A DNA stretch of 64,000 nt from Desulfosporosinus youngiae DSM 17734 (GTDB taxonomy: Bacteria; Bacillota; Desulfitobacteriia; Desulfitobacteriales; Desulfitobacteriaceae). The stretch is from NCBI RefSeq assembly GCF_000244895.1, contig NZ_CM001441.1:4988198-5052197 (forward strand), in the 5' to 3' direction. The position numbers and the translations under genes are program-made. Shown in pieces: positions 30,513-61,323 of this stretch. The notes below the pieces were generated by a model, which was not told where the DNA came from, ran no database searches, and saw nothing but the letters and a program-made list of their open reading frames with translations. Within the stretch, counting starts at the first letter, position 1, and the number at the start of each line of letters is the position of its first letter.

Positions 30513-31772
30513 CTAAATACTCCAGGCTACTTTTCCTCGTTTAATCACCATTTCTACGGGGTTATTTCCAAAATGATAGGGCAAATAATTTAGATTTGGT
30601 ATGTCAAGTATGAGCACATCCCCCTGTTTTCCAACTTCCAAACTTCCCACCTGATCCGCTCTGTCAATAGCATGCGCAGCATTGATCGTCGCCGCTGTCA
30701 AAGCCTCCTCAGGAGTAAGTCTAAGGTATAGGCAGGCAATGGTCAAAACAAGCGGCATGGATTCTGTGGGAGACGATCCTGGATTTGAATCCGTGGCCAG
30801 TGCTAGAGGTACCCCTGCTTGAACCATCTCTCTTGCTCTGGCGTACGAATTCTTGGCAAGATTAAACGACGTTGCCGGAAGCAACACTGCAATGACACCT
30901 TTTCGGGCAAGGGCCGCGATCCCTTCATCCGAGGCTTGAAGTAAATGATCTGCACTAATAACGCCCAGCTTTGCAGCTAATTCTGCTCCTCCTGCTGAAG
31001 CCAATTCATCAGCGTGCATTTTTAACTTAAGATTTAAATCTTTAGCCTTCAGTAAAATCCGCTCACTGGATTCGAGACTAAAAACCCCAGGCTCGCAAAA
31101 AACGTCACAGAACTCCGCCAAGCCCTCTGCGGCAATCTGAGGCAACATTTCATCAACAATGTAGTTTGTGAACCTTTCTTCATTGTAGCCTGGGGGAACG
31201 GCATGCGCACCCATAAACGTCGGTACTAAATCAACGGCTTGTTCTTGATCTAATTCATGGATCAAACGCAACGCCCGGAGTTCTTCATCCAGCATTAAGC
31301 CATATCCGCTCTTCGCCTCAGCCGTCGTCGTGCCCATGCTGAGCATCGTTCGAAGCCGGCGACTTGTCTGCGCCTTAATTTCTTCATCCGATGCCTGCTT
31401 TGTACTCTGAACCGTGGATAAAATCCCCCCGCCCTGTTTAAGTATCTCGAGATAGGGAACCCCTTTTAGTTTTAAAGACAACTCGTTCTCACGCGAGCCA
31501 GCATAAAGAACATGGGTGTGAGGATCAACAAATCCTGGTGTAACAACTTTACCTGACGCATTAATTAGCTTTGTATCAGGGCCTATCCATCCATCTGCCC
31601 GGACTTCCTCAGTTGTGCCAACCGCTGTAATCTTGCCGTCTTGAATAGCAACAGCACCATCCTCGATTATACCGATCTCAGACATATCCGTCCCACAGGC
31701 CGGTCCCTCCGAGAAACCTCTCAGCGTCGCCATCATCTGAGCGGAATGGATCACCAGATCCGCATAAACCAC
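30513..31772 (-). CDS. hutI: Imidazolonepropionase
   Basis: About 419 residues, amidohydrolase superfamily. It hydrolyses 4-imidazolone-5-propanoate to N-formimino-L-glutamate, the third step of histidine degradation. Metal-ligand segments are visible as DPHTHVLYAGSREN, MGAHAVPPGYN, KMHADELASAGG and LATDSNPGSSPT. I prefer the GTG at 31770-31772, which has GGAG eight nt upstream; the TTG at 31790 has no useful SD. It starts 21 bp after the hutU stop, and the two are surely cotranscribed. No hutH or formiminoglutamate hydrolase is present in the window. Confidence 0.95.
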   Translation of the reverse strand: MVYADLVIHSAQMMATLRGFSEGPACGTDMSEIGIIEDGAVAIQDGKITAVGTTEEVRADGWIGPDTKLINASGKVVTPGFVDPHTHVLYAGSRENELSLKLKGVPYLEILKQGGGILSTVQSTKQASDEEIKAQTSRRLRTMLSMGTTTAEAKSGYGLMLDEELRALRLIHELDQEQAVDLVPTFMGAHAVPPGYNEERFTNYIVDEMLPQIAAEGLAEFCDVFCEPGVFSLESSERILLKAKDLNLKLKMHADELASAGGAELAAKLGVISADHLLQASDEGIAALARKGVIAVLLPATSFNLAKNSYARAREMVQAGVPLALATDSNPGSSPTESMPLVLTIACLYLRLTPEEALTAATINAAHAIDRADQVGSLEVGKQGDVLILDIPNLNYLPYHFGNNPVEMVIKRGKVAWSI

Positions 31773-31793
31773 ACAATCATCTCCATTCAATTC

Positions 31794-33806
31794 CTACTTG
31801 ACCAACCGATCAATCAATTCATCCTTTGGAATAAAGGGAACCGTAATATGCCCCAGCCCCTTATATCGCTCGTTAAACTCGATGCTCGTCTCGATGGAAT
31901 GTTCATTTCTAGCCCAAGACCGTCGCGCTACTCCACCGATAACATCCCATAACAGAGCAGATTTGATAATACTGTCCACTCGCTCGCTGCCATCAAGCAC
32001 CAAGCCAAAGCCGCCATTAATGGCTTTGCCAATACCGACGCCCCCTCCATTGTGAAGAGATACGAGGCTCATCCCACGCGCAGCATCTCCCGCGAAACTC
32101 TGCACAGCCATGTCTGCCATAACATTGCTGCCATCTTTAATGTTTGCTGTTTCTCTGAACGGCGAATCTGTTCCGCTCACATCATGATGATCCCGCCCCA
32201 GCATGACCGGGCCAATTTCTCCCTGACGTACCATTTCATTAAATTTAAGGGCAATTTTAATGCGTCCTTCGGCATCCTGATATAGAATTCGGGCTTGCGT
32301 ACCTACGACCAGTTTGTTTTTCTCAGCATCCTTAATCCAAATATAATTATCCCGATCTTGCCCCCTGCGATTCGGATCAATACAAGACATCGCTGCCGAG
32401 TCCGTTTTACGCAAATCTTCCGGTTTGCCGCTCAGGCAAACCCATCGGAACGGTCCATATCCATAATCAAAGAGCTCCGGCCCCATAATATCTTCGACAT
32501 AGGACGGGAAGATAAAACCATCTTTTTCATCCACACCGTTTTTCGAAATTTCCTTCACTCCAGCATCATAAACCGCTTTCATAAACGAATTACCATAATC
32601 AAAGAAATACGTCCCACGTTCAACCAGGGTGCGGATTAATTCAAATTGACGAACCAAACTCTGATCCACGAGCTTCTTAAACTCAGCCCGGTCTGTTGCC
32701 AGCAGCCTCGTTCTCTCTGCAAAGGAAATCCCCTGCGGGCAATACCCGCCTTCATAGGCAACATGGCAGGACGTCTGATCACTGAGCAAATCCACTTGAA
32801 TTTGATGATTAACCGCATACTCCAATAAATCGACAATGTTACCCTGATAAGCAATCGACATAGGCTCTTTTTTCCGCATATACTCATCCGCAATACGGAA
32901 GACTTCCTCAAGATCCGCAGACACTCTGCTAACCCAACCTTGCTCAAAACGAGTCTTGATTCTAGACTCATCCACTTCAGCAATAATTCCCACACCACAG
33001 GCAATTTCCACAGACTTTCCTTGAGCACCACTCATTCCGCCCAGACCTGAGGAGATGAATAATCGCCCGCTTAAATCCCCATCGTGTGGAATCCCTAACT
33101 TCATTCGCCCGGCATTAAGCAAGGTATTAAAGGTACCATGGACAATTCCCTGAGGGCCAATATACATCCAACCGCCCGCCGTCATCTGCCCATAATTTGC
33201 GACACCCATTTGTTCAGCAATTTCCCAATCCTTCTGATTGTCAAACATCCCGACCATCAAAGCATTGGTAATAATCACCCGCGGAGCATCCGGGCGGGAA
33301 GGAAATAAGCCGACGGGATGACCTGATTCCATAACCAGAGTCTGTTGATCTGTCATCACTTCGAGATATTTTTTAATCAAACGATATTGCAGCCAGTTTT
33401 GACAAACACTTCCTGTCTCACCATAAGTAACAAGCTCATAAGGGTAAAGCGCCACGTCAAAATCCAGGTTGTTATCAATCATCACCTGAAAAGCCTTGCC
33501 TTCTGTGCAGTTACCCTTATACTCATCGATAGGCTTCCCATACAACCTTCCCGCCGGACGGTAACGATACGCATAAATTCTCCCCCTGGTCCGCAACTCC
33601 TCCAGAAACTCAGGCGCTAATTGTTCATGCAGTTCTTCGGGAACATAGCGCAAAGCGTTTTTCAAGGCAATTTTCGTTTGCTCAACCGACAGGCTATAAC
33701 CTCGATCCGGTGCCCGCCTAATCCCTTCCACAAACTCCGGCATCTCCGGCAATTTAGAATCCAGCTTGATCGTCATGGCTTGGGAAATGTTATTGTTACT
33801 GATCAT
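31794..33806 (-). CDS. hutU: Urocanate hydratase (long form)
   Basis: 670 residues, in the size class of the long urocanases (like the animal enzyme) and not the roughly 550-residue Bacillus form. It uses tightly bound NAD+ to hydrate urocanate to imidazolonepropionate. Visible motifs are GWMYIGPQGIVHGTFNTL, the NAD-site run SGLGGMSGAQGK, DQTSCHVAYEGGYCPQG and the C-terminal HNGGGVGIGKAINGGFG. The ATG at 33804-33806 has the SD AGGGGTGA; the in-frame GTG at 33815 lies inside that SD. It lies 192 bp downstream of the corrinoid protein gene and upstream of hutI. The substrate could be a urocanate derivative in this context, which sequence alone cannot settle. Confidence 0.94.
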   Translation of the reverse strand: MISNNNISQAMTIKLDSKLPEMPEFVEGIRRAPDRGYSLSVEQTKIALKNALRYVPEELHEQLAPEFLEELRTRGRIYAYRYRPAGRLYGKPIDEYKGNCTEGKAFQVMIDNNLDFDVALYPYELVTYGETGSVCQNWLQYRLIKKYLEVMTDQQTLVMESGHPVGLFPSRPDAPRVIITNALMVGMFDNQKDWEIAEQMGVANYGQMTAGGWMYIGPQGIVHGTFNTLLNAGRMKLGIPHDGDLSGRLFISSGLGGMSGAQGKSVEIACGVGIIAEVDESRIKTRFEQGWVSRVSADLEEVFRIADEYMRKKEPMSIAYQGNIVDLLEYAVNHQIQVDLLSDQTSCHVAYEGGYCPQGISFAERTRLLATDRAEFKKLVDQSLVRQFELIRTLVERGTYFFDYGNSFMKAVYDAGVKEISKNGVDEKDGFIFPSYVEDIMGPELFDYGYGPFRWVCLSGKPEDLRKTDSAAMSCIDPNRRGQDRDNYIWIKDAEKNKLVVGTQARILYQDAEGRIKIALKFNEMVRQGEIGPVMLGRDHHDVSGTDSPFRETANIKDGSNVMADMAVQSFAGDAARGMSLVSLHNGGGVGIGKAINGGFGLVLDGSERVDSIIKSALLWDVIGGVARRSWARNEHSIETSIEFNERYKGLGHITVPFIPKDELIDRLVK

Positions 33807-33900
33807 ACAGGTCACCCCTCACTAAAAATTTTAAGCCTTGACCTAACTTACTAATCAATAAAACTAGCAGAAAAGTCACTTAATTGGCAGTTTAGAAATA

Positions 33901-33998: not shown

Positions 33999-34634
33999 CT
34001 AAGCAATTAAATTCCGACACAAATCTGTGGCAGCTGCAGCATCCGGAGCATATCCGTCGGCGCCGATTTCATTAGCGAAGCTTTGGGAAATGGGGGCTCC
34101 TCCAATCACAACTTTGACGGAATCACGCAATCCCTCTTCTTTCAATGCCTCAATCGTATCCTTCATGGCCGGCATTGTTGTTGTCAAAAGAGCGGACATA
34201 GCAATAACTTGGGGCTTGTGGTCTTTAACCCCTTTCACAAAAACAGCAGGGGCTATGTCAACACCTAAGTCAACAATCTCAAATCCGGCACTTTCCATCA
34301 TCATCACGACGAGATTTTTCCCGATGTCGTGAAGGTCGCCCTTTACCGTACCAATCAACACTTTCCCGGCAGTAGGCATATCTTTATCCGCAATCAAAGG
34401 TTTTAAGAGTTCGATCCCTGTGCTCATAGCTCTGGCAGACATCATGACCTCCGGAACAAACATATCCCCGGCTTTGAAACGAACCCCGACAACATTCATA
34501 CCCGCCATTAATCCTTGGTTAATAATTTCTAAAGGCTCAATACCGTTATCGATCATCTTCTGAGTTAAATCCTTAGCTCCGGCATAATTCCCACTAATCA
34601 CAAGTTCAGATAAATTAGCAAAATTGCTCATCAT
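33999..34634 (-). CDS. Corrinoid methyl-carrier protein (MtgC/MttC type)
   Basis: 211 residues: an N-terminal helical cap (about 1-85, with MAGMNVVGVRFKAGDMFVPE) and a C-terminal B12-binding domain with the base-off motif GDLHDIGKN, whose His ligates cobalt, plus SALLTTTMPAM and GGAPIS. It accepts a methyl group from the MttB-family partners and donates it to a second methyltransferase that makes methyl-tetrahydrofolate in acetogen-like bacteria. No such second methyltransferase is in the window. The ATG follows AGGAGGAATT. It is 108 bp after the second mttB homologue. Confidence 0.94.
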   Translation of the reverse strand: MMSNFANLSELVISGNYAGAKDLTQKMIDNGIEPLEIINQGLMAGMNVVGVRFKAGDMFVPEVMMSARAMSTGIELLKPLIADKDMPTAGKVLIGTVKGDLHDIGKNLVVMMMESAGFEIVDLGVDIAPAVFVKGVKDHKPQVIAMSALLTTTMPAMKDTIEALKEEGLRDSVKVVIGGAPISQSFANEIGADGYAPDAAAATDLCRNLIA

Positions 34635-34742: not shown

Positions 34743-36200
34743 CTACGCTTTAACTCCAAGCTTTTCCCTGGCTTTGCGGAGAACTTCAGCAATTTGCTCC
34801 TTTACATCTTCAGAGACGGACTTGGGCTGGTGGGTATCCAAGATAAGTTTAATGCGGTCCCGGGCACGTTCCACCATTGTTTTGCTGCCGTTCACTGTCC
34901 AGTTTTCATAATTGTTGAAATCCGAAAGATCGGACATCCAATTTCCTCTAAAATGCTTAACGGTATGCTCATCCCCGAGGAAATTTCCTCCCGGGCCAAC
35001 CCGTTTGATCGCCTCTACGCCCAGGGATTCCTTATCCGTATCAATCCCCTTTAAAAGCCGCCGGGTCCGTCCGATAACTTCGTTGGAAATAACCAGCAGC
35101 TCTAAGGAGCCTGTTATGCCAAATTCCATATAGAAAACATCATGCATAATATTACACCCTTGGAGCGCTCCCATTAACGTAAACATCGTCGACTCCACAA
35201 TCGCCTGCTCATCGCAAACCTTAGAATTGCTGCAGCCGGCATAGCCCCAAGAGGGCAGCTGGTAGTAGTGGGCCAGATCAACGGCTCCGCCTTGAAAGAG
35301 CACCGCCTCGGGAGTTCCATAAACCGCCTGCATCGAGCGCATATCCAGCGGGGAATTTCCATAACCGTAAATAAACGGCGCCCCTGGAGCTTTCAACTGG
35401 TGAATAATTAAGCCGCTCAACGCTTCCGCATTGGCCTGAACCAAAGCCCCTGCCACAGTTGTAGGAACAGATGCGCCCGCTACACCACCACACGCGAAAT
35501 TCGCCGGAACTCCATTTTCTGCAGCGATCAACAATTTATCAACGGACTCCTTCGGATGTTGAAGCGGCGAAGTCGGCTCAGTATAGATCATAAACAAAGG
35601 CTTCTGACGCAGACGTTCTTTTCCGCCGACCGCACACGCAGCCATCTCAATAATATCCCGCAGGGTATCCCCATCTTCAGCAATAACCACCTGAGGTTTC
35701 TCTGTGTTTTGAACCATAATTGCATATTGTTCCCGATTAATCATAAGCGGGTCCACATCAGACAATAAACCCATGGACATGACAAAATCAATATTTGGTA
35801 ATTTATCGCAAATTCTGATGGCATTAGCCACATCCTCTTGACGCCAACTCCGCCGTTCCAAGGTGAACGGATCGAGATAGTTGAGCGTATCCGACCCTGT
35901 ACCAAAGTAAACATTTGTCCCCTCTAAATGCAGTGCTGCTTCCCCATTGCGGTCATATAGAGTTACACGAGAAGGGGCCGATTGCAGTGCTTGCTTCACC
36001 AGAAAGCTCGGAAAATAAACACGGTTACCATTTTCGACCTGCGCTCCCGCCTGTCGAAGTAGTTCAACTGCTTCTTCATGGTGAATTACCATACCTGTAT
36101 CTTCGAGAATTTGGCAACTGGCAAGATGAATCTCCTCTGCTTGCTTTTCCGAGAGTGTTCGAAAGAATAGGCCATTTCCATGTGAGCTTCCTAATCCCAT
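34743..36200 (-). CDS. MttB-family methyltransferase, non-pyrrolysine (quaternary amine type), paralogue 2
   Basis: 485 residues, related to trimethylamine:corrinoid methyltransferase but with no in-frame TAG, so it does not contain pyrrolysine. Non-Pyl members such as MtgB of Desulfitobacterium demethylate glycine betaine, and others use proline betaine, carnitine or butyrobetaine. Conserved segments are YFGTGSDTLNYLDP, GNSPLDMRSMQAVYGTPE and RVGPGGNFLGDEHTVKHF. The ATG at 36198-36200 has the SD AAAGGGGT. It follows paralogue 1 by 24 bp. The exact substrate is not evident, and the two paralogues differ enough to prefer different ones. Confidence 0.88.
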   Translation of the reverse strand: MGLGSSHGNGLFFRTLSEKQAEEIHLASCQILEDTGMVIHHEEAVELLRQAGAQVENGNRVYFPSFLVKQALQSAPSRVTLYDRNGEAALHLEGTNVYFGTGSDTLNYLDPFTLERRSWRQEDVANAIRICDKLPNIDFVMSMGLLSDVDPLMINREQYAIMVQNTEKPQVVIAEDGDTLRDIIEMAACAVGGKERLRQKPLFMIYTEPTSPLQHPKESVDKLLIAAENGVPANFACGGVAGASVPTTVAGALVQANAEALSGLIIHQLKAPGAPFIYGYGNSPLDMRSMQAVYGTPEAVLFQGGAVDLAHYYQLPSWGYAGCSNSKVCDEQAIVESTMFTLMGALQGCNIMHDVFYMEFGITGSLELLVISNEVIGRTRRLLKGIDTDKESLGVEAIKRVGPGGNFLGDEHTVKHFRGNWMSDLSDFNNYENWTVNGSKTMVERARDRIKLILDTHQPKSVSEDVKEQIAEVLRKAREKLGVKA

Positions 36201-36224: not shown

Positions 36225-37694
36225 TTATCGAATTGCCGCTTTTGCTTTATCCGTCTCAGAGATGATATCATTTAATCCCTGACGGATTGTTGGGTCTAAT
36301 AGTTCAGGGGTATGAGCAGCGACGATCTCTTTAGCTAATTCCTCAGCATTGTCTTCCATCGATTTCGACCCCTGCTCTTCCCAGATCTCCCAGAAGGAGC
36401 GATTGAACTGTTTTGGCATCCAAACTTCTTCACGGAAATATTTAAACGTATGTTCATGGCTAACATAGTTTCCACCCGGTCCCACTTCATCGATCACATC
36501 GACAGCCATCGTCTCGTCATCAATCCGCGTACCTCTTCCCATATAACGTGCATTATCCATGAAATCATTACACATTGTAAGGAAAGCCAACGAACCGGTT
36601 TTTCCGCCTTCCAGATATCCCACATCATGAACCAGATTAGCACCCATTAATTGAGCCATTAAAATACCATTTCCGGCTTCCATGCCAGCTTGAGCATCCG
36701 GCACCGGAGAATTGACACACCCAGCTTCCGTGAAGTTAGGAATCCCATAAAACTGGGATAATTGAGTCATGATGGCATAGTTCATCATTGTCTCCGGAGA
36801 GCCATACAAGGTCGCCGTGGTTCTCATATCCATAGGAGTCGCTCCGCCGCCAATAATAATTGGAGCCCCCTTTTGTTTTAATTGAGCCATGACAACTCCT
36901 GCCAATGCTTCAGCATTCATCAACACAATGGTTCCTGCTTTGGTAACCGGTGTAGTTGCCCCCGACAAAATCCCCGGAGTATAAACCACCGGAACACCAT
37001 ATTCAAAGCAAGCAAACATTTTGCCCACTCCATCATTGGTGTGCACCAAAGGAGAGATCGGCTCGGAATAAAGCATCAGGAACGGATTCTTTCTCAGTTC
37101 TTCCTTCCCACCAGCAACTAAAGCAGCCATTTCTAATTGCGCCCGCATGTTGATTTCATCATGGGCAGTAACAATGATTGGTTTTATAGTATTAGAAACC
37201 ATCGCCTCTAATTGATGAAGGTCACTCACTCTAGGACTCGTATCTGAGGCAATCGCATAACTCATGACAAAATCATAATTCGGCAAATAATCCATCACCC
37301 GGCAAGCAAGCTCCACATCCTTCTTCGTCGAGCGTCGCCGCTTACCCGTCTCCAAGTCAATTGTATAGGGCAGATCTGAGCCTGTCCCAAAATATGTCCG
37401 ATTCTTTTCCAACGGCATAACCCGTTGACCCTTCCGATTAGCGACCACAATTTTGCGAGGTGCTAACCGCAGGCATTCCTCTACCAGCCAGCTCGGAATT
37501 CGAACACGGTTCTCATTAACTATACATCCGGCATCCTTCAGCAACTGTAATGCTTCGGGGTGATCGACCTTAACTCCGGTTCGTTCCAGAACCTCCAAAG
37601 TTGCGAAATGAATTTGCTCGATTTGCCCCTCACTCACCCAGCGTAATAATGGCGTTGTTTGTTCTATACTATTGGAACGAATCTTTCTCATCAA
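36225..37694 (-). CDS. MttB-family methyltransferase, non-pyrrolysine (quaternary amine type), paralogue 1
   Basis: 489 residues and the first gene of a sigma-54-type transcription unit. Its segments match paralogue 2: YFGTGSDLPYTIDLETGKR, GGATPMDMRTTATLYGSPE and EVGPGGNYVSHEHTFKYF. The reading frame is open throughout, with no amber codon, so it belongs to the pyrrolysine-free branch that methylates the corrinoid protein from a quaternary amine. Its partner is presumably the corrinoid protein at 33999. A 5' leader of about 210 nt separates it from the promoter at 37920. Confidence 0.88.
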   Translation of the reverse strand: MMRKIRSNSIEQTTPLLRWVSEGQIEQIHFATLEVLERTGVKVDHPEALQLLKDAGCIVNENRVRIPSWLVEECLRLAPRKIVVANRKGQRVMPLEKNRTYFGTGSDLPYTIDLETGKRRRSTKKDVELACRVMDYLPNYDFVMSYAIASDTSPRVSDLHQLEAMVSNTIKPIIVTAHDEINMRAQLEMAALVAGGKEELRKNPFLMLYSEPISPLVHTNDGVGKMFACFEYGVPVVYTPGILSGATTPVTKAGTIVLMNAEALAGVVMAQLKQKGAPIIIGGGATPMDMRTTATLYGSPETMMNYAIMTQLSQFYGIPNFTEAGCVNSPVPDAQAGMEAGNGILMAQLMGANLVHDVGYLEGGKTGSLAFLTMCNDFMDNARYMGRGTRIDDETMAVDVIDEVGPGGNYVSHEHTFKYFREEVWMPKQFNRSFWEIWEEQGSKSMEDNAEELAKEIVAAHTPELLDPTIRQGLNDIISETDKAKAAIR

Positions 37695-37919
37695 TCCTTA
37701 CCCGGTTAATAAAACTTGGAAAACCTAACCTTATCCTTTCCTAATTCTTGCTGTTTGATTTTCTCTCCAAGTTTTGAACGTTTTGTCACCTTGGTCTACC
37801 TAAAACTACCTTAAATACCCGGGAAGCTTTGCATTTGCTGAAAGTTAGAAAACTCTTACTTAGCTTATAGATAATAACTAAGTGGGTATTTAATATTTCT
37901 TTCACTACAGTTATTTAGT

Positions 37920-37935
37920 AGCAAATTCTATGCCA
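37920..37935 (-). promoter_or_regulatory. Sigma-54 promoter upstream of the mttB-corrinoid-hut genes
   Basis: The minus strand reads TGGCATAGAATTTGCT, matching TGGCAY-N5-TTGCW at both the -24 and -12 elements. It is 226 bp upstream of mttB paralogue 1 and downstream of a 13-bp dyad at 38147-38179. The remainder of the 496-bp gap (37695-38190) holds a weak 69-codon frame that I reject and a small dyad near 37855-37885. Confidence 0.8.
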
Positions 37936-38146
37936 ATTCTTTAAACCAGAAGAAATCTTCTTTTTAAGTATGTGTTTCAAGTCCATATTAGCGCGTTTAA
38001 GCCCATTGTATAGCTTGTAAAGATGTCCCGGGGCTGTATAAATACAGGGGTTTGCCTGCTTATAAAAACGGAATATATCGAATCCGCATAAACTTTTTGC
38101 ATCTATAGTTTCTATATAAGCCAACTATTTATGACTTTATATGAGC

Positions 38147-38179
38147 GCATAATTTATTAGCACTGCCTAATAAATTTGC
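38147..38179. promoter_or_regulatory. Probable activator-binding dyad (UAS) for the mttB promoter
   Basis: Arms GCATAATTTATTAG (38147-38160) and CTAATAAATTTGC (38167-38179) form a near-perfect palindrome around CACTGC, about 210 bp upstream of the sigma-54 promoter at 37920. Very similar half-sites, GCATAATTTATTTGC and GCAAATTATTATGGC, occur at 43115 and 43179 by the other sigma-54 promoter. Confidence 0.6.
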
Positions 38180-38190
38180 TGATTTACGTT

Positions 38191-39195
38191 TCATTTTTTG
38201 TTATGATTTAAACCATTATCGAGAGGAACCATGGAAATTGCCTTACTGCCACAGGCTTCAACACAAATCCCGCATCCCCAACATTTGCTTGGGTCAAACT
38301 CGACGTTTCTCCGAGTCTTGCCCTTCACCACCCTTTCCGTTTCTCCCCAATAGAAAGCCCCAAAATTGCAGCGCTTAGTACAGGCTCCACAATGGGAACA
38401 CTTGGTTTCATCATAATGAGCCTCGAATTGACTAATAGGAAATATACCCTTCGTCCCCTTTTCCTGGGCCAGACGTGTTGGATAACAGCAGCAGGAACAA
38501 CAATTACACATAAAAGCCGGCCCATTTGTCCGCCAGTCACTGTTCAATTGATGCATCAGGCCTTTCTTATGAGCTGTCATCACAAGCTCTTTGGCCTCTT
38601 CCCTCGTAAGTGAACGACCAAACGTACGATCCTTTATTGCATCGTCAAAACTCAGACAAGTTTCCACCGGCTTAGCGCACTGCTCTGCTAACTTGCGGCA
38701 ATTACAAGGAACTAAACGGATCTCACTCACACGCTCCAATACGTCGTCAAGATCTTCAATCAGCATAAACTCCTCTGGTGCTCTATCCACAGCTTCCCCA
38801 TTCAGCAGTGAATTAAGATACGGCTCCATCCGTTCGGCATAAACCTGATAGCACCACTGATCTAAAGCCTGTTTTAACTCTTTATCCATTAGGGGATAGT
38901 TTTCATCAAACTTACACATATAATCCAAGAGATCATAGAAATCCCCTGCAAAATAAACAAGCTCCCCATTAAGCTCTTCCTTGTGAACAATATGCTTATT
39001 ATAACAGCTTTGCAAAAAAACCTGTGTCTCTTCTAAAGAAAAACCTAGCCTTACTGCAATTTCAGGGGCAGTACACTTTTGACCATCAAGCCGGTCCACC
39101 AGGTCCATCTCATATTCCGAAATAAAACGAGAAAGATAAGGAATTGCAAATTCAGGTACACCAAACGAAGAAATTGAGTTATCAATTGTAGTCAT
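38191..39195 (-). CDS. Cysteine-rich 4Fe-4S ferredoxin-like protein of the methyltransferase cluster
   Basis: About 334 residues. An N-terminal winged-helix-like region (about 30-90, DRLDGQKCTAPEIAVRLG) is followed by a helical stretch, a PCNCRKLAEQC motif near 165, an unusual CNCCSCCC cluster near 232 and two ferredoxin-type motifs, CSHCGACTKRC and CWGCGICVEAC, near the C-terminus. I infer a redox partner, perhaps for reactivating oxidised corrinoid; it is not a RamA homologue. I prefer the ATG at 39193-39195, which has AAAGGCAGG upstream. It lies between the ABC importer genes and the mttB genes. Confidence 0.8.
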   Translation of the reverse strand: MTTIDNSISSFGVPEFAIPYLSRFISEYEMDLVDRLDGQKCTAPEIAVRLGFSLEETQVFLQSCYNKHIVHKEELNGELVYFAGDFYDLLDYMCKFDENYPLMDKELKQALDQWCYQVYAERMEPYLNSLLNGEAVDRAPEEFMLIEDLDDVLERVSEIRLVPCNCRKLAEQCAKPVETCLSFDDAIKDRTFGRSLTREEAKELVMTAHKKGLMHQLNSDWRTNGPAFMCNCCSCCCYPTRLAQEKGTKGIFPISQFEAHYDETKCSHCGACTKRCNFGAFYWGETERVVKGKTRRNVEFDPSKCWGCGICVEACGSKAISMVPLDNGLNHNKK

Positions 39196-39233
39196 TTTTA
39201 CTATCCTGCCTTTCATGATGCAAAACATCGTAA

Positions 39234-39276
39234 AGCCACTTTACACCTATTGTGAAGCATTAGGTATAAAGTGGCT
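39234..39276. terminator. Hairpin between the ABC importer operon and the 4Fe-4S gene
   Basis: Arms AGCCACTTTACACCTA (39234-39249) and TAGGTATAAAGTGGCT (39261-39276) pair over 16 bp with one mismatch. It follows the binding-protein gene and precedes the 4Fe-4S gene by 39 bp. The T-tract is short, so it may be a partial terminator. A smaller CGGCG/CGCCG stem is at 39321-39333. Confidence 0.6.
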
Positions 39277-39357
39277 GATTACTTGAATGAGCGGCTTAAT
39301 CACGGAAACATTCCAACCCTCGGCGGAACGCCGAAGTTGAGGTGCGTCAGACCTTAC

Positions 39358-40302
39358 TTATTTTAACAATTGCTTACTTTTTAAGAAGGTTGTTGAAACT
39401 TCTTCGATAGACTTCTTCTCAACATCGACTTGCATGTTTAATTCAGTAATAGTCTTTGTATCCAACACAGAACTCAATTTCTTAAGATCCTCTGCCAGGG
39501 TAGGATAGGCATCCACAATTTCCTGACGTACGACAGGAGCTGCGTTATAGACCGGGAAGGCTTTCTTATCATCTTCCAGCATTACCAGCTTATCTGTAAC
39601 AATCCTGGGTTCTGTCGTGAAGGCTAATGCCAGATCCCCTTTTTTATTGGCAAGCGTCTCGTAGTTTAGACCCATAGCTACATTAACATAATCGTTTTTA
39701 GGCATTTTGAAATCATAGACTTTCTCGAAAGCCGGCAGCCCATCTGCTCGTCCTTCCCATTCAGGGAAACCGACAAATTTAAGGCCTTCCCCCTTCTTCA
39801 CCAGAGCAACATAGTCAGACGTGGTCTTCAAGTTATACTTTTCGGCAATATCTGATCGAACCACAATTCCGTAAGTATCATTAAGTGGGGCATAATCCAG
39901 CCACGCAATTCCGTTCTTGGCATCCCAATCTTTAATGAGTTTGTAGCTTTCATCAGCATCAAATACAGGTTCATGTTCCATTAAATTCAAGACACCCGTA
40001 CCAGTGTATTCCCAATAGAGATCAATTTGCCCGGAGGTCAGAGCAGGTCTGATAACGGCCAATTCACCGAGACCCATCTTGTTTTCAACGGGATAGCCTA
40101 GTTCTTCCATGTATTGGAGGGTCATCGTTCCTAAAAGTGCCGCTTCGGTGAAGGTTTTGGAGGAAATCTTAATGGCAGGTCCTTCCTTTGCCTTATCTGG
40201 AGCAGATCCGGCAGCAGGCTCCTTGGAACCGCAGCCAAAGACCCCGCCCAAAGCTAATGTCAGGGACAAGACTGCAACGAGAAATAATGATCGTTTTTTC
40301 AT
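39358..40302 (-). CDS. Glycine betaine/quaternary amine-binding lipoprotein (OpuCC-type)
   Basis: About 314 residues. A signal peptide with the lipobox GGVFGCGS is followed by an OpuAC-type binding domain (IKISSKTFTEAALLGTM, LYWEYTGTGVLNLMEHEP, WLDYAPLNDTYGIVVRSD). Family members carry choline, betaine or carnitine to the OpuC permease; aromatic residues (W, Y) that form the ammonium-binding cage are present. I prefer the ATG at 40300-40302 behind AGGAAGGGG; the longer frame to 40410 gives an odd N-terminus. It is the last gene of a four-gene importer operon. Confidence 0.92.
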   Translation of the reverse strand: MKKRSLFLVAVLSLTLALGGVFGCGSKEPAAGSAPDKAKEGPAIKISSKTFTEAALLGTMTLQYMEELGYPVENKMGLGELAVIRPALTSGQIDLYWEYTGTGVLNLMEHEPVFDADESYKLIKDWDAKNGIAWLDYAPLNDTYGIVVRSDIAEKYNLKTTSDYVALVKKGEGLKFVGFPEWEGRADGLPAFEKVYDFKMPKNDYVNVAMGLNYETLANKKGDLALAFTTEPRIVTDKLVMLEDDKKAFPVYNAAPVVRQEIVDAYPTLAEDLKKLSSVLDTKTITELNMQVDVEKKSIEEVSTTFLKSKQLLK

Positions 40303-40479
40303 GTACATACCCCTTCCTTTTATTGAACTGTTCCAATTATACATCTTTTCACAATATTTTCGAAGCACTTTTTCCACAATTTTCTGGACATCCCTCCTTC
40401 CAAGCTCCATGTCAAAACGTCACCCTTGGCCCCTACAGCCTCCTCGATACATCTTGCCGACCGAAATCCCGTCTCTCTC

Positions 40480-41124
40480 CTACTCGACCTTCATCCCCGG
40501 CGGAGTAATCCGATACTCCAGATAGTTAATCATCCGATCTAAAAAGATTGCCATCAGCGCCCCCAGCCCCGCGCCAACCAGCAAGTATTCAGGCCGGAAA
40601 AGAGCTAAACCGCCCATAATAAGATTGCCCAAACCTCCTGCCCCGATTAAAGAAGCCAATGTACCCATACTCACAACGTAAACTGTCGCCGTCCGGATAC
40701 CGCTCAGAATAATCGGGATAGCTAAGGGAATTTCTACTTCGAAAAGTATTTTTCGCTGGGACATTCCCATACCGCTCGCCGCTTCCTTAACATCTGAACT
40801 AACTCCCAATAAACCGGCAATCGTATTTCTGACGATGGGCAACAGGCTTTGGAATAGAAGAGCAACTATGGCAGGTTTCATTCCCAAACCAAGAATCGGT
40901 AAAGCCAGAGCAATAACAGCAATCCCGGGCACAGCTTGTAAAAGATTCAGGATGTTAAGGGTGACAAGACCAAACTTTCTAAATTTCGGACGGCTTAGAA
41001 ACACCCCGAGCGGTATAGAAATCAGGATTGCAATCCCTATGGTGATCACAACGATCATGGAATGCTCCAATAAAGCCTCCGGTGCTTTCTCGAATAGAGC
41101 AAACCTGAAATTCTCCCACCTCAT
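40480..41124 (-). CDS. Quaternary amine ABC importer permease (OpuCD-type)
   Basis: 214 residues with about five or six membrane segments and the binding-protein-dependent permease motif EAASGMGMSQRKILFEVEIPLAIP, which contacts the ATPase. It is the second permease of the importer. The ATG immediately follows the ATPase stop (TAG-ATG adjacency), indicating translational coupling. Confidence 0.92.
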   Translation of the reverse strand: MRWENFRFALFEKAPEALLEHSMIVVITIGIAILISIPLGVFLSRPKFRKFGLVTLNILNLLQAVPGIAVIALALPILGLGMKPAIVALLFQSLLPIVRNTIAGLLGVSSDVKEAASGMGMSQRKILFEVEIPLAIPIILSGIRTATVYVVSMGTLASLIGAGGLGNLIMGGLALFRPEYLLVGAGLGALMAIFLDRMINYLEYRITPPGMKVE

Positions 41125-42240
41125 CTACACACCCTCTTTCCTATAAACATGCTTCCTGATCCCCTTGAAAGAGAGCATCCCGCAAAGTACCTCGCCCTTC
41201 AGAATTCCTAGATAATCAGCATCATATTCCAGTAATAAAGAAAGCGCATCAGGAAACGGAGTGGTTGTCTGAACAAAGGCTTTCTCCGTCTTAAGAACCC
41301 GTTTTCTTAACCCCTCCAAATCGTTTTCAAGCTTGTCAAGATCAGCAGAGGTAATGTGCCCGCAAGCCTTGCCGGCTTTATTAATAACAAAAGCCACCTC
41401 GGCTCCCGCATCCTTCATTTTCCGGGCAGCATTCTCCAGTTCCTCTTCCTTTACGGTACAACCAACCGGCTGCATTCCGTCTTCAGCCAAATAAAGGTTC
41501 AACTTTTTCACAACCCGGTCACGACCGATAAAATCTTCGACAAACTCATTGATTGGATTGGTCAAAATCTCTTCCGGAGTTCCGAATTGAACTAGCTTTC
41601 CAGCATTAAAAATAGCAATCCTGTCCCCCATTTTTATAGCTTCATTAATATCATGGGTAACAAAAACAATGGTCTTCTTAATCTCCTTCTGTAAACGGAG
41701 CAATTCATCCTGCAGATGCGTCCGGGCTATCGGGTCAACTGCGCCAAAGGGCTCATCCATCAACATTATCGGAGGATCAACGGCCATTGCCCTGGCGACC
41801 CCAACTCTCTGCATTTGCCCGCCGCTAAGCTGAGAGGGATACTTTCCCCTTGTCTTTTCCAGATCAAGCCCCATCATAACGATTAATTCGTCAACACGCT
41901 GCTTGATCTTCTCCTTTGGCCATTTATACAATCGGGGAACGATGGCTATATTCTCGGCAATGGTGCGGTGAGGCAGCAGGCCAATCTGTTGAATAACATA
42001 ACCGATCCCCATTCTCAATTGGTCCGGATCTGTGCGCGTCACATCCTCTCCATTAATCTTGACGACCCCGGATGAAGGTTCAATCATACGGTTGATCATG
42101 CGTAAAATAGTACTCTTCCCACAGCCTGAAGGTCCGACTAAGACACATATCTCCCCTTTCGGAATGGAAAGCGATAATTTGTCAACGGCTGGCATTGCTT
42201 GACCTGGGTATTGTTTTGTAATTTGCTCTAGTACGATCAT
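41125..42240 (-). CDS. Quaternary amine ABC importer ATPase with CBS domains (OpuCA-type)
   Basis: About 371 residues. The ABC domain has Walker A GPSGCGKST, signature LSGGQMQRVGVARA and Walker B LMDEPFGAVDP. A C-terminal region (about 250-370) contains two CBS-like segments, which in OpuA/OpuC sense ionic strength or c-di-AMP. I prefer the ATG at 42238-42240, which has AGAGGAGG upstream; the ATG at 42258 lies before that SD. It sits between the two permease genes in the operon. Confidence 0.93.
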   Translation of the reverse strand: MIVLEQITKQYPGQAMPAVDKLSLSIPKGEICVLVGPSGCGKSTILRMINRMIEPSSGVVKINGEDVTRTDPDQLRMGIGYVIQQIGLLPHRTIAENIAIVPRLYKWPKEKIKQRVDELIVMMGLDLEKTRGKYPSQLSGGQMQRVGVARAMAVDPPIMLMDEPFGAVDPIARTHLQDELLRLQKEIKKTIVFVTHDINEAIKMGDRIAIFNAGKLVQFGTPEEILTNPINEFVEDFIGRDRVVKKLNLYLAEDGMQPVGCTVKEEELENAARKMKDAGAEVAFVINKAGKACGHITSADLDKLENDLEGLRKRVLKTEKAFVQTTTPFPDALSLLLEYDADYLGILKGEVLCGMLSFKGIRKHVYRKEGV

Positions 42241-42300
42241 CAGAAACCTCCTCTGCAAACTCTTTCTGTCCTCAGTTAGGCCTTTTATGTAGATGAGGCG

Positions 42301-42957
42301 TTAGCGGCTAATTCTTAATCCTTTGGGAACAACTCTTTTCTCAATCAAGCCAAGAAACGTATCTAAGCCAATGGCGATCACCGAGATAATCAAAGCACCT
42401 GTGACCAACATAGGAGTATTAGAACGAACGAGGCCTTCCTGAATAAACCGCCCTAAATTACGCTCCCCGATGTAAGTGGCTATCGCCGCAATGCCGGTGG
42501 TCATTACCACCGTCACTCGAAAACCGGCAAAGATAACGGGCATACCTAAAGGTACAAGAATTTCAACAAGAATTCTCCTTGTGCTCATACCCATCCCTTT
42601 AGCCGCTTCAATTACATTGCGGTCGACATTTTTAACCCCGTCATAAACACTGCGAATTAAGGGCATCATCGCATAAAGCACCAACGCAAACAAAGCAGAT
42701 TTTCGGCCCAAGCCGAACATGGGAATAGTTACCAAAATAGCAAACATGGACAAACTTGGAATACAAAATATCGTGTTCGCCAGCGACAAGACCCTAGCCG
42801 CCCATTTATCACTTTTCGTCAATAATAACCCGACAGGTACCCAAATCACCAGAGAAATCCCCACTGCCAATAAGACCAGAGTAAAATGATTTTCTGAATA
42901 CTCCAGAATGGTCCTGGTGTTTCTTGTAAAAAAATTAATCATGTCCGACAATGTCAC
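42301..42957 (-). CDS. Quaternary amine ABC importer permease (OpuCB-type)
   Basis: 218 residues, about six membrane segments, with the coupling motif EAAKGMGMSTRRILVEILVPLGMP. It is the first gene of the importer operon, transcribed from the sigma-54 promoter at 43046. The start is a GTG at 42955-42957 behind GGTGGGGTGA. With the ATPase, second permease and binding lipoprotein it makes a complete type I importer. Confidence 0.92.
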   Translation of the reverse strand: MTLSDMINFFTRNTRTILEYSENHFTLVLLAVGISLVIWVPVGLLLTKSDKWAARVLSLANTIFCIPSLSMFAILVTIPMFGLGRKSALFALVLYAMMPLIRSVYDGVKNVDRNVIEAAKGMGMSTRRILVEILVPLGMPVIFAGFRVTVVMTTGIAAIATYIGERNLGRFIQEGLVRSNTPMLVTGALIISVIAIGLDTFLGLIEKRVVPKGLRISR

Positions 42958-43045
42958 TTCGCATCACCCCACCTTTCTTTCATCTATTCATGAATCACAC
43001 TTCAAATTAAAACATTTTAAAAAATACTGTAAATTTAATATATGT

Positions 43046-43061
43046 TGCAAAAATCATGCCT
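43046..43061 (-). promoter_or_regulatory. Sigma-54 promoter for the importer operon
   Basis: The minus strand reads AGGCATGATTTTTGCA: GGCAT at -24 and TTGCA at -12 with the right 5-bp gap, close to consensus apart from the leading A. It is 89 bp upstream of the first permease gene and 54 bp downstream of a GCATAATTTATTTGC half-site. Confidence 0.8.
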
Positions 43062-43114
43062 GCTTTCAGATAATTTGGCCATCTGGCTTTTTGTCCACAG
43101 CCTTGAATCCTTAT

Positions 43115-43193
43115 GCATAATTTATTTGCTATAGAAAAACACCCCAAGACTAGCCAGGAGTGTTTTTCTATAGCAAGCGCAAATTATTATGGC
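43115..43193. promoter_or_regulatory. Paired activator half-sites flanking a terminator-like hairpin
   Basis: GCATAATTTATTTGC (43115-43129) and the inverted GCAAATTATTATGGC (43179-43193) flank a perfect 15-bp stem (GCTATAGAAAAACAC / GTGTTTTTCTATAGC, 43128-43174). The stem can end the regulator gene just upstream, while the half-sites resemble the dyad at 38147 and are placed as a UAS for the promoter at 43046. Confidence 0.6.
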
Positions 43194-43197
43194 GCGC

Positions 43198-44595
43198 TTA
43201 AAATTTATGCATTCCTAATTTTTTCATCCTGTATTGGAGATTTTGCCGAGCAATTCCTAAGGATTGAGCAGCCCTGGTGACATTCCCGCTATGAGCTTTC
43301 AATGCTTCCCACAGCACTTGCTTCTCTACCTCACGCAAAGCATGAGCTAAAGTGCCGGACCCCTTTTTGTAGAGCTCGGTTGAACTCACCTCCTGACTGA
43401 GAAACTTTGCCTTTAGATAATGAGGTAAATGGTCCATAGTTATAACCTTCCGGCCGTCCAGCATGTTCATTGCGCTTTCAAGAATGTGCTCTAATTCGCG
43501 TACATTTCCCGGCCATATATATCTAAGGAAAACATTCTTTAGATCATCACCAATTTGAACCTCACCTAAGCCATAGATTTTTTGATACCGGTTCAAAAAA
43601 AAGTGAATCAAAGCTTCAATATCTTCCTTCCGATCCTTCAAAGGGGGAATAAAGAGGGTCATAACGGCCAGGCGATAAAAAAGATCTTTACGCATGCTCC
43701 CATTGTTTACTGACTCCCAAGGATCAACATTCGTAGAACTGATCACCCGGCAGTGAATAGGAATCTCCGTTGTCCCGCCAACCCGCCTCACCATTTTTTC
43801 TTGAACGACTCGTAAAATCTTGGCCTGCAAAGCGATACTCATACAATTTAATTCATCTAAAAACAAGGTTCCCTGACCTGCTTGTTGGAACAGTCCCTTT
43901 GATTCCACGGCTCCTGTAAAAGCCCCCTTGGCCGTCCCAAATAGGATGCTTTCCAGCAAGGTTTCCGGAATTGCCGCACAGTTAATTGCTACAAAAGGTT
44001 CATTTTTTCTAGGGCTATGATTATGAATGGCTTGAACCAGTAGTTCCTTACCCGTTCCGGTCTCGCCAAACACTAAGATAAATCCATCCGCTACCGCTGC
44101 TTTCTTAGCAGAAGCAATTAAGCGTTTCATCGTTGAGCTGGCATAGACAATCGAATCAAAGGTATAACGGGTTCCATTATTACTGCGCTGCTCCTGCCCT
44201 TCCAACCCAATCTGGTCGTGTAACTGCATCGTCTTAGTTAACAATTCTTTAAACTTGGTAATATCTTTACACACGGAATAGACCGCAACCACCTGATCGT
44301 CTTCTATCACGGGAAACGTACTGGCTACAATCGTGACCTCTTTACCTTTGTTTGTAAAATAGGCTTTATGCTTCTCAAGAACAGGTTCACGGGTAAGCAC
44401 AACACTCAAGTGTTCACTGCTTTCCACAGTAACCGCATCATAGACCTCATTCAGGTGCTTTCCAACAACATGTTCCGATAACAATTCTTCTAACTTAGCC
44501 ATTTCTGCATTATAAAAGATGATCTTACCCTCAGTATCTGTAACAATGATCCCTTCGTCAATTGAATTGAAGAGATGCCTAAAAACTTGAATCAT
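43198..44595 (-). CDS. Sigma-54-dependent transcriptional activator (PAS, AAA+, Fis)
   Basis: About 465 residues. An N-terminal PAS domain (about 5-110: FNSIDEGIIVTDTEGKIIFYN) probably senses a small molecule. The AAA+ domain has Walker A GETGTGKE, the sigma-54 contact loop GAFTGA and Walker B TLFLDELN. A C-terminal Fis-type helix-turn-helix (SLGIARQNLQYRMKKLG) binds the enhancer. No response-regulator receiver is present. I take the ATG at 44593-44595 behind AGGTGAT; 44613 is possible. The organisation is RocR/PrdR-like. The adjacent importer and the mttB genes with matching dyads are the likely targets. Confidence 0.92.
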   Translation of the reverse strand: MIQVFRHLFNSIDEGIIVTDTEGKIIFYNAEMAKLEELLSEHVVGKHLNEVYDAVTVESSEHLSVVLTREPVLEKHKAYFTNKGKEVTIVASTFPVIEDDQVVAVYSVCKDITKFKELLTKTMQLHDQIGLEGQEQRSNNGTRYTFDSIVYASSTMKRLIASAKKAAVADGFILVFGETGTGKELLVQAIHNHSPRKNEPFVAINCAAIPETLLESILFGTAKGAFTGAVESKGLFQQAGQGTLFLDELNCMSIALQAKILRVVQEKMVRRVGGTTEIPIHCRVISSTNVDPWESVNNGSMRKDLFYRLAVMTLFIPPLKDRKEDIEALIHFFLNRYQKIYGLGEVQIGDDLKNVFLRYIWPGNVRELEHILESAMNMLDGRKVITMDHLPHYLKAKFLSQEVSSTELYKKGSGTLAHALREVEKQVLWEALKAHSGNVTRAAQSLGIARQNLQYRMKKLGMHKF

Positions 44596-44750
44596 AATAT
44601 CACCTACAGGCATACTCCAACCCCCTTAGTCATTTAAAACACTATAATACTCTGATTCTCCAACTAACGATATACCTTTTTAAATGTCACTATACCGGCA
44701 TCATCCAATCATGAGGCTCTCATTTCAATAGCCGAGAATGATCCCTTGTT

Positions 44751-45623
44751 TCACAGGTTAGGGAACAAATCCTCAAAAAGGTCGTAAGCCAGACCTCGAA
44801 TAGCCTCGCGTTTATACTCCCGGGAGTCACGGCCAGGAATTGCTCGATCCACTACTCCTGTTAAATGATCGGCAATGTCCTCTGCAAGTTCTTGGTTAAC
44901 CCTCTTTCCCTGTAATTCCTGCTCCAACTCCTTTAAACGAAAGGGGACACGCCCTAACGCTCCCACTGCCCATCTTGAGTTTAAAATCCGCTGACCCTCA
45001 ACATCAAATTCCACCATTACCGCCATATTTAAACGAGCAATCGAAACCGCGGTACGGCTTCCGATTTTCCCAAAAGCGCTGATAATACGAGCTTTCTCCT
45101 GCGCTTTCCACAGAGGAAAATCGATCTCAGTGATCAATTCCTTCTTACGCAGACCTTGGCCATCTCCTGCTTGCAACTGAGCAAAGGGTAATCTCCGAAT
45201 GCCTTGAGGTCCAATCATACTGGCCCAAGCATCAAGGACCAGCAAAGCGGGTAGACTGTCCCCCGCCGGCGAAGCGTTAGCAATATTTCCGCCTATGGTA
45301 GCCCGGTTACGGATTTGAGCAGACCCCACCTGAGACGCGGCTTGGCTCAAACAACGAGCTTTCTCCCGAACGAGATTACTCTCACCGATTTGAGCAAAGG
45401 TTGTCCCGCTCCCAATCTTGATCCTACCATCAGCTTCCCTAATAAATTTAAGCTCCGGAATCAAAGAAACATCCATCAGCCAATCAGGATGTATCTGACC
45501 GCTCTGTAATTTAATGACAAGGTCCGTACCGCCGCTTATAAACATAACGTCCTCATTAATTGCGGAAATCTTCTCAATCCCGTCTGCAATAGTCGCTGGA
45601 CAAACAAACTGACATTTCGGCAT
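44751..45623 (-). CDS. Molybdopterin dehydrogenase FAD-binding subunit (CoxM/XdhB-like), orphan
   Basis: 290 residues. The FAD-binding fold of medium subunits of xanthine and CO dehydrogenases is visible in FISGGTDLVIKLQSG and RNRATIGGNIANASPAGD, with the C-terminal CO_deh_flav domain after about residue 175. Normally it transfers electrons from a molybdenum subunit through a 2Fe-2S subunit to FAD. Neither partner is encoded nearby, so it may serve a remote enzyme or a different one. It lies upstream of the sigma-54 activator in the same direction with a 155-bp gap. Confidence 0.88.
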   Translation of the reverse strand: MPKCQFVCPATIADGIEKISAINEDVMFISGGTDLVIKLQSGQIHPDWLMDVSLIPELKFIREADGRIKIGSGTTFAQIGESNLVREKARCLSQAASQVGSAQIRNRATIGGNIANASPAGDSLPALLVLDAWASMIGPQGIRRLPFAQLQAGDGQGLRKKELITEIDFPLWKAQEKARIISAFGKIGSRTAVSIARLNMAVMVEFDVEGQRILNSRWAVGALGRVPFRLKELEQELQGKRVNQELAEDIADHLTGVVDRAIPGRDSREYKREAIRGLAYDLFEDLFPNL

Positions 45624-61307: not shown

Positions 61308-61323
61308 AGCAAGAATCATGCCA
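61308..61323 (-). promoter_or_regulatory. Sigma-54 promoter for the thiolase operon
   Basis: The minus strand reads TGGCATGATTCTTGCT, a full match to TGGCAY-N5-TTGCW. It is 116 bp upstream of the thiolase start. The -24 end overlaps a perfect 11-bp inverted repeat (ATGCCAATATT / AATATTGGCAT, 61318-61342). Confidence 0.85.

Follow-up and report, generated by a model that had tools for sequence, protein, structure and literature searches.

A predicted sigma-54 regulon linking a betaine-type importer and an MttB-family methyltransferase operon in Desulfosporosinus youngiae

Analysis of a 64,000-nucleotide stretch of the chromosome of Desulfosporosinus youngiae DSM 17734 (NZ_CM001441.1, positions 4,988,198 to 5,052,197; hereafter the window) points to a two-operon regulon that is well supported, with the binding of its activator predicted. 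One sigma-54 promoter precedes a betaine-type importer operon, and another precedes an operon that begins with mttB1, the gene for a non-pyrrolysine methyltransferase of the MttB family. Upstream of each promoter lies an array of 15-bp sites, and the arrays at both operons are very probably worked by the product of the neighbouring gene, which encodes a sigma-54 activator of the PAS-AAA+-Fis type. We consider it highly probable from these sequence comparisons that the importer and mttB1 operons form a pathway-specific sigma-54 regulon under this activator. The genome around the window is complete and 5.66 Mb in size, and all genes of the predicted regulon lie on the minus strand. The elements on which the argument rests are as follows; profile R1, a model of the sites built from relatives, is described below.

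37920-37935, minus strand: sigma-54 promoter of the mttB1 unit, TGGCATAGAATTTGCT; GG-N10-GC spacing; start expected near 37909 from the -12/-24 rule
43046-43061, minus strand: sigma-54 promoter of the importer unit, AGGCATGATTTTTGCA; GG-N10-GC spacing; start expected near 43035
38165-38179, minus strand: predicted activator site 1 of the mttB1 promoter, GCAAATTTATTAGGC; from side-by-side comparison, shuffle test and profile R1
38147-38161, minus strand: predicted activator site 2 of the mttB1 promoter, GCTAATAAATTATGC; with R1, the tandem 38144-38180 reaches 22.7 bits
38086-38100, minus strand: predicted activator site 3 of the mttB1 promoter, GCAAAAAGTTTATGC; 9.5 bits alone with R1
43196-43210, minus strand: predicted activator site 1 of the importer promoter, GCATAAATTTTAAGC; overlaps the stop and final codons of the activator gene
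43179-43193, minus strand: predicted activator site 2 of the importer promoter, GCCATAATAATTTGC; the tandem 43176-43212 scores 23.2 bits
43115-43129, minus strand: predicted activator site 3 of the importer promoter, GCAAATAAATTATGC; 11 bits alone
43198-44613, minus strand: PAS-AAA+-Fis sigma-54 activator, 471 aa; Pfam PF00158, PF25601 and PF02954, PAS models, and orthologs

Sigma-54 promoters

An earlier reading of this DNA, made from the sequence only, had placed sigma-54 promoters at 37920 and 43046. Both are confirmed exactly at these positions on the minus strand, and both are conserved in relatives. Each has GG and GC doublets 10 bp apart and matches 10 of the 12 specified positions of the TGGCACG-N4-TTGCW context. 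A relaxed form of the motif, WGGCATNNNNTTTGCW, occurs 17 times in the genome as against two occurrences of the reversed pattern, and the genome has one sigma-54 gene (PF04552 match, 204 bits). Of the orthologous loci, 16 of 19 have a sigma-54 site in front of mttB1, and 17 of 18 have one in front of the importer, L042 being the exception among the latter. In the three mttB1 loci that have no separate site, the ferredoxin gene almost abuts mttB1 (gaps of 54, 57 and 137 bp), which looks as if two units had merged into one.

Two further good sigma-54 sites are present in the window, both on the minus strand, at 61323 (TGGCATGATTCTTGCT) and 63066 (TGGTACGATTATTGCA). The first precedes a run of thiolase, acyl-CoA dehydrogenase and CoA-transferase genes and the second a CheW-like gene, the gene names being assigned by eye.

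The unit and its geometry

The sequence-only reading had described an AT-rich dyad at 38147, with matching half-sites at 43115 and 43179. The palindromic letters at 38147 are real, and the sequences at 43115 and 43179 do match the repeated unit, but the division into arms and halves does not stand. Positions 38147-38179 comprise two complete neighbouring sites, 38147-38161 and 38165-38179, and complete sites likewise begin at 43115 and 43179. Judged by alignment of the loci, the predicted unit is a complete 15-bp site of the form GC-N11-GC with an A/T core, so that the dyad was real but misread. There are six such predicted sites in the window, three at each promoter; four had been seen as arms or half-sites, and those at 38086-38100 and 43196-43210 had been missed. 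The sequence GCATAATTTATT is found in the window solely at 38147 and 43115. Position counts over 54 distinct sites give the consensus GCAAAAAWWTTWKGC, and the palindromy of the inner 11 letters is modestly above that of shuffled letters (2.67 versus 2.24 of 5 pairs).

In the mttB1 array of the window, units 1 and 2 are separated by three bases, and in the loci compared the starts of these two units are 16-19 bp apart. The distance from the start of unit 2 to that of unit 3 is 58-64 bp in 20 of the 24 cases in which both later units are clean; the exceptions are the mttB1 arrays of L037 (68 bp), L042 (118 bp) and L043 (47 bp) and the importer array of L033 (75 bp). Between the third unit and the -24 element there are 57 to 395 bp. 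A variable distance between array and promoter, combined with a mostly fixed internal geometry, fits enhancer action. Three clean units are present at 10 of 16 mttB1 promoters and at 9 of 18 importer loci.

Of the 18 importer loci, 11, the window among them, have a first site that runs into the final codons or the stop of the activator gene. Here the stop codon occupies 43198-43200 and is overlapped by importer site 1 only, site 2 being free of it. Because of this overlap, the C-terminal residues of the activator would themselves be constrained by the enhancer.

It is extremely unlikely, in our view, that the AT-rich dyad is a structural element, that is, a terminator or hairpin following the upstream gene, rather than a place where protein binds. 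The dyad does follow a gene end, and as RNA the segment 38140-38185 folds to -11.3 kcal/mol (z -2.5); however, its stem is A/T-rich and by inspection no T run comes after it. The terminator scan also omits it, although this counts for less than it might since a strong hairpin at 43126-43176 is omitted too. Moreover, it is the 15-bp GC-N11-GC unit that the relatives keep, and the isolated third sites cannot pair with a neighbour. On the terminator scan and the folding, we rejected the dyad as a terminator. The hairpin at 43126-43176, which again lies after a gene end, is an inverted repeat of 20 bp whose 3' arm contains a T run; it folds to -30 kcal/mol (z -7.5). In the importer promoter it falls between sites 2 and 3 and touches site 3. 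It is perhaps the terminator of the activator gene, and it does not explain the arrays.

A second inverted repeat, of 10 nt, is found in the leader before mttB1 (37711-37720 and 37766-37775, AAAACTTGGA/TCCAAGTTTT) and recurs with few changes in several relatives. We do not claim it as an RNA element, as its fold is no better than those of shuffled sequences (z -1.1) and it has no Rfam match; an Rfam search of 37600-44800 returned a single match, far under its gathering score.

Enrichment and profile searches

Enrichment of the unit was measured against dinucleotide shuffles in 28 upstream regions from 16 loci, which were left after exclusion of promoters with gaps below 100 bp and of loci without both flanking genes. 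These regions contain 63 sites where 5.05 are expected. The two upstream regions of the window have three sites each, against expectations of 0.23 (p 0.002) and 0.31 (p 0.006), and across the 64 kb of the window, clusters of three sites within 120 bp occur at these two promoters only. Regions with none or one site are those of L046 (mttB1), L037 (both) and L042, L047 and L050 (importer).

The literal pattern GCATAATTTATTNG is found without mismatch at just two places in the genome, 38147 and 43115. This exact uniqueness proves little, because the pattern was derived from those very places and, with up to two mismatches, gives 232 matches, equal to the 232 of the reversed control. It was therefore rejected as a genome-wide motif.

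Profile R1 was built from an alignment, A1, of 23 tandem sites of relatives. A1 deliberately omits the window; it also omits L035, which nearly duplicates L034, and the importer sites of two loci that lack a clean tandem there, L043 and L047. Some units in A1 are imperfect: unit 1 in five mttB1 arrays (L042, L043, L045, L048 and L049) and unit 2 in three importer arrays (L036, L037 and L050). R1 recovers both window arrays, with 23.2 bits for the importer and 22.7 bits for mttB1, and in a search of the whole genome the mttB1 array ranks first (E 7.6e-4). A genus-wide search of 29 genomes gives 34 rows at E<=0.05; four are matches on the other strand, which leaves 30 distinct places. Of these, 27 belong to this cluster, 21 of the 27 being in the training set. 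Nine of the places were held out of training; six of the nine are promoters of the cluster, including two in G021, which nearly duplicates a locus used for training. Outside the genus, R1 matches in L154, from Paradesulfitobacterium ferrireducens, at both promoters (E 0.0015 and 0.022), in L155 at one (E 0.0017) and in L156, from another Bacillota genome, at the importer promoter (E 2e-5); matches are weak at L156 mttB1 (0.06) and in L158 (0.45) and absent in L157. No match at E<=1 was obtained in 15 control loci. Nor was any such site cluster present in the seven stretches that carry the genome's other MttB genes, six of which have an activator homolog of their own nearby. A search for the dyad in the genome and in relatives had been proposed as a check by the sequence-only reading, and its outcome is favourable: the arrays recur at both promoters in most cluster-bearing Desulfosporosinus loci and in L154 and L156.

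The activator and its co-occurrence with mttB1

The activator has PAS, sigma-54 AAA+ (PF00158, 205 bits) and Fis-type helix-turn-helix (PF02954, 46.7 bits) domains, and GAFTGA is present in its translation. It differs from NtrC, which carries a receiver domain, in having a PAS domain. At E<=1e-130, 16 of the 29 genomes of the genus encode the protein at 78-100% identity, and a further three do so at 47-48%. Exactly these 19 genomes have mttB1 (E<=1e-150); the other 10 lack both genes. Three further genomes of the order have activator orthologs at 64-69%. Wherever activator and importer are on one stretch the two adjoin, L050 being the exception. The recognition-helix stretch GIARQNLQYR is identical in the window, 15 genus orthologs, L154 and L156, and the three genomes with the diverged activator (G004, G012 and G025) have GILRQSLQYR, with two changes, and altered arrays. 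This suggests that helix stretch and arrays co-vary in these genomes.

The variant of 47-48% identity also precedes another MttB gene, in L083:5448-12469 and L135:1501-4386. In L083, an ammonia-lyase-like gene and a further MttB follow that gene. The motif upstream of the variant is different and includes GCAATGCAA(A)TTTTGCAG.

Weighing the regulon

The sequence-only reading predicted a single regulon under the PAS-AAA-Fis protein at 43198, a prediction that the conserved promoters and arrays support, as does the agreement of activator and mttB1 in 29 of 29 genus genomes. A number of observations nevertheless weigh against it. Promoters other than those with three clean units carry two, one, no or imperfect units, and in G027 (L042), although the activator is present and mttB1 has an array, neither a promoter nor a site can be recognised ahead of the importer. 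In the genome-wide search the importer array of the window came only fifth (13.4 bits, E 0.73), because the match was shortened. At E<=0.05, R1 misses the importer arrays of G003 and G025, though these were in its own training set, and that of G020, though three sites are visible there; it also finds three places away from the cluster (G014:C240, G004:C125 and G019:C13). Part of the co-occurrence and conservation is due to common descent of a single gene cluster. A second activator in G003 (L137), 48% identical, has the stretch GIGRQNLQYR, with one change only, and the genome contains many sigma-54 activator candidates, 72 in a first look.

These last two points could be taken to favour a different arrangement, in which another Fis-type sigma-54 activator binds the arrays and the neighbouring one controls something else. 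The cluster is also kept in G004, G012 and G025 with an activator that is only 47-48% identical, and since the second G003 activator has nearly the same recognition-helix stretch, conservation of the helix is weak evidence for this particular activator. On the other hand, activator and mttB1 are present or absent together throughout the genus, the genomes with a diverged activator show altered arrays along with their two helix changes, the activator adjoins the importer with the single exception given above, and among the unlinked places opened there is no array with a correctly placed sigma-54 site. We judge control by another activator to be very unlikely.

Rather unlikely, too, is a larger regulon in which the two units are joined by unlinked targets that escape the profile. 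Weaker arrays could have gone unnoticed because 150 of 3086 first-look candidates were scored in the genome-wide search and because the importer array was shortened. Twelve distinct unlinked places were found in the genome at E<=10, of which six were opened together with their genes and four were scanned for sigma-54 sites only. All six opened places, however, are inside reading frames, and most genus-wide places belong to this cluster, even if the majority of those are training sites. We take the unlinked matches in this genome as chance on present comparisons. Two unlinked matches, in L076 and L077, fall in near-identical genes with sigma-54 sites of their own and were rejected because the R1 match is inside the coding frame. 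These genes (L076:7010-8173 and L077:6890-8113) are alcohol-dehydrogenase-like by eye, with the sigma-54 site upstream or at the 5' end.

In sigma-54 systems, the activator assembles at its upstream sites, reaches the polymerase through a DNA loop and uses ATP for promoter opening. In the preferred two-operon regulon, dimers of the neighbouring activator would bind the 15-bp GC-N11-GC sites, arranged as a tandem pair and a third site upstream of both promoters, contact the sigma-54 polymerase by looping of the DNA and open the promoter with ATP. This would switch on the betaine-type importer operon, including the ferredoxin gene, and the mttB1-mttB2-corrinoid operon, perhaps with read-through into hutU-hutI. 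We assume that its PAS domain responds to the substrate or to the redox or energy state. With a defined 15-bp site, two promoters and one activator, this would be a small and directly testable regulon whose gene content points to one substrate.

Gene content and the predicted substrate

In minus-strand order, the genes are those of the activator, a permease, an ATPase, a second permease, a binding protein, a ferredoxin-type protein, mttB1, mttB2, a corrinoid protein, hutU and hutI. Those downstream of the activator are listed here.

42301-42957, minus strand: importer permease 1; PF00528, 82.2 bits
41125-42258, minus strand: importer ATPase (ProV-like); TIGR01186, 349.5 bits, above cut-off
40480-41124, minus strand: importer permease 2; PF00528, 72.3 bits
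39358-40410, minus strand: betaine-type substrate-binding protein; PF04069, 179 bits; nearest solved chain by sequence OsmF-like 4wep
38191-39228, minus strand: 4Fe-4S dicluster ferredoxin-type protein; PF00037, PF12838 and others
36225-37694, minus strand: mttB1, non-pyrrolysine MttB-family methyltransferase; PF06253, 338.7 bits; no in-frame stop
34743-36200, minus strand: mttB2, non-pyrrolysine MttB-family methyltransferase; PF06253, 312.2 bits; no in-frame stop
33999-34634, minus strand: cognate corrinoid protein; TIGR02370, 220.4 bits, above cut-off
31794-33815, minus strand: urocanate hydratase, hutU; TIGR01228, 435.2 bits, above the cut-off of 375
30513-31790, minus strand: imidazolonepropionase, hutI; TIGR01224, 475.8 bits, above cut-off

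From gene linkage, we predict that the substrate of the regulon is histidine betaine (hercynine). The prediction is drawn from the linkage to hut genes, the betaine-type binding protein and the non-pyrrolysine MttB pair. One or more histidine-degradation genes are present at 19 of 20 mttB1 loci (at least 67% identity), L157 being the exception; several of the 20 loci are cut by contig ends, and L161, at 32% identity, was excluded. This count is from loci found through mttB1, as linkage in loci found through hutU is circular and was not used; 15 of the 21 named loci retrieved via mttB1 are from Desulfosporosinus. No hut genes are present in any of the seven stretches covering the genome's other eleven MttB-family genes.

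The fullest cluster is that of P. ferrireducens (L154:2152-19446), where activator, importer, two MttB, ammonia-lyase, corrinoid, pterin-type methyltransferase and Hut genes form one run. The histidine ammonia-lyase gene (TIGR01225, 722 bits, above cut-off) sits between mttB2 and the corrinoid gene, and the run continues with a methyltetrahydrofolate:corrinoid-type methyltransferase, hutU, formiminotransferase and hutI, these families being named from the relatives used as queries. The two ammonia-lyase genes of the window genome are elsewhere (L162 and L163), and R1 found no array in the 19 kb around either.

Against TIGR02369, the model of the pyrrolysine-containing trimethylamine methyltransferase, MttB1 and MttB2 score 442 and 432 bits, below the cut-off of 525. 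Their solved relatives by sequence include the glycine betaine methyltransferase 9yce. Among the 13 MttB-family genes of the genome, four have one in-frame TAG, and these likely encode pyrrolysine; another has an in-frame TAA. The binding protein scores 98-101 bits against chains of the ergothioneine binder EgtU, a likeness that does not decide the substrate since OsmF-like and ProX-like chains match better.

If hercynine is the substrate, it would be imported by the betaine ATP-binding cassette system and demethylated by MttB1/MttB2 and the corrinoid protein to histidine or a methylated histidine, which histidine ammonia-lyase and the Hut pathway would then convert to glutamate. A single PAS-type sigma-54 activator would govern the genes for import and demethylation alike, from an enhancer that lies partly within the activator's own 3' coding end. 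That this is a dedicated regulon for the anaerobic use of hercynine as a source of methyl groups and carbon, and hence adds a further substrate to the MttB superfamily, is a tentative proposal from gene content, to which we give somewhat less than even weight. Betaines are made by fungi and actinobacteria, and with hercynine as substrate the regulon would connect such compounds with the anaerobic one-carbon metabolism of the bacteria described here.

In many relatives, hutU/hutI have as a neighbour the gene for a conserved protein of about 240 aa (L034:708-1445 and orthologs close to hutI). The protein has no Pfam or NCBIfam match and is absent from that place in the window. The gene that relatives have between hutU and hutI matched no family, and we give it no name.

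Elsewhere in the window, a reading frame for a group II intron-type reverse transcriptase was recognised by eye from the sequence at 10202-11611 on the minus strand.

Comparison with known systems

In the available part of a study of sigma-54 and enhancer-binding protein regulons of Clostridiales (Nie et al. 2019, PMC6615313), the Fis-type activator is usually encoded beside its target operon, upstream sites are multiple and the sigma-54 consensus is TTGGCATNNNNNTTGCT. The regulon proposed here follows the same logic, with the activator near its target, multiple upstream sites and a sigma-54 promoter. The HiaR group of that study has hutH among its targets in Clostridium; the 39 groups of its Table 1, in which several entries are unnamed genes, include no named MttB, corrinoid or betaine-importer target. 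Fifteen groups described there, PrdR among them, have TGT-N10-12-ACA sites, whereas the unit here is GC-N11-GC. PrdR, the proline reductase regulator (NF041552), is the best NCBIfam match of the activator at 372 bits. We rejected this identification, given a cut-off of 795 bits, the different reported site type and the different neighbours.

The GC-N11-GC spacing fits the NtrC box TGCACCAnnnTGGTGCA as given in the accessible text of PMC8743547, although the inner letters here are A/T-rich. The sites also fit the 15-bp Fis core, as that is presented in the portion of PMC3711457 consulted, in their length, A/T-rich centre and G/C ends.

The systems of the MttB superfamily covered in PMC12155760 (MtgB for glycine betaine, MtpB, MtcB, MtyB and MthB), so far as its main text goes, likewise pair a non-pyrrolysine MttB with a corrinoid protein, and relatives of the present cluster share with them a methyltetrahydrofolate:corrinoid methyltransferase. 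What sets the present cluster apart from the systems of that text is linkage to histidine ammonia-lyase, urocanase, formiminotransferase and imidazolonepropionase. Six members of the superfamily with a known physiological substrate are counted in that text, in which the word histidine does not appear. No paper combining hercynine and MttB was found, many subscription papers being outside the search, and 'histidine betaine' does not occur in the papers on corrinoid and anaerobic demethylation among the matches listed.

The only paper found to join Desulfosporosinus, sigma54 and methyltransferase is a 2025 survey (PMC12316311), whose available part already places MttB (COG5598) among the predicted sigma-54-regulated groups of Clostridia and gives no activator, binding site or substrate for this cluster. 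Sigma-54 control of MttB genes in Clostridia was thus already predicted, at the level of COGs, and regulons of this kind are known; as the literature searched names no such regulon, the 15-bp site, the target set and the proposed substrate appear to be new.

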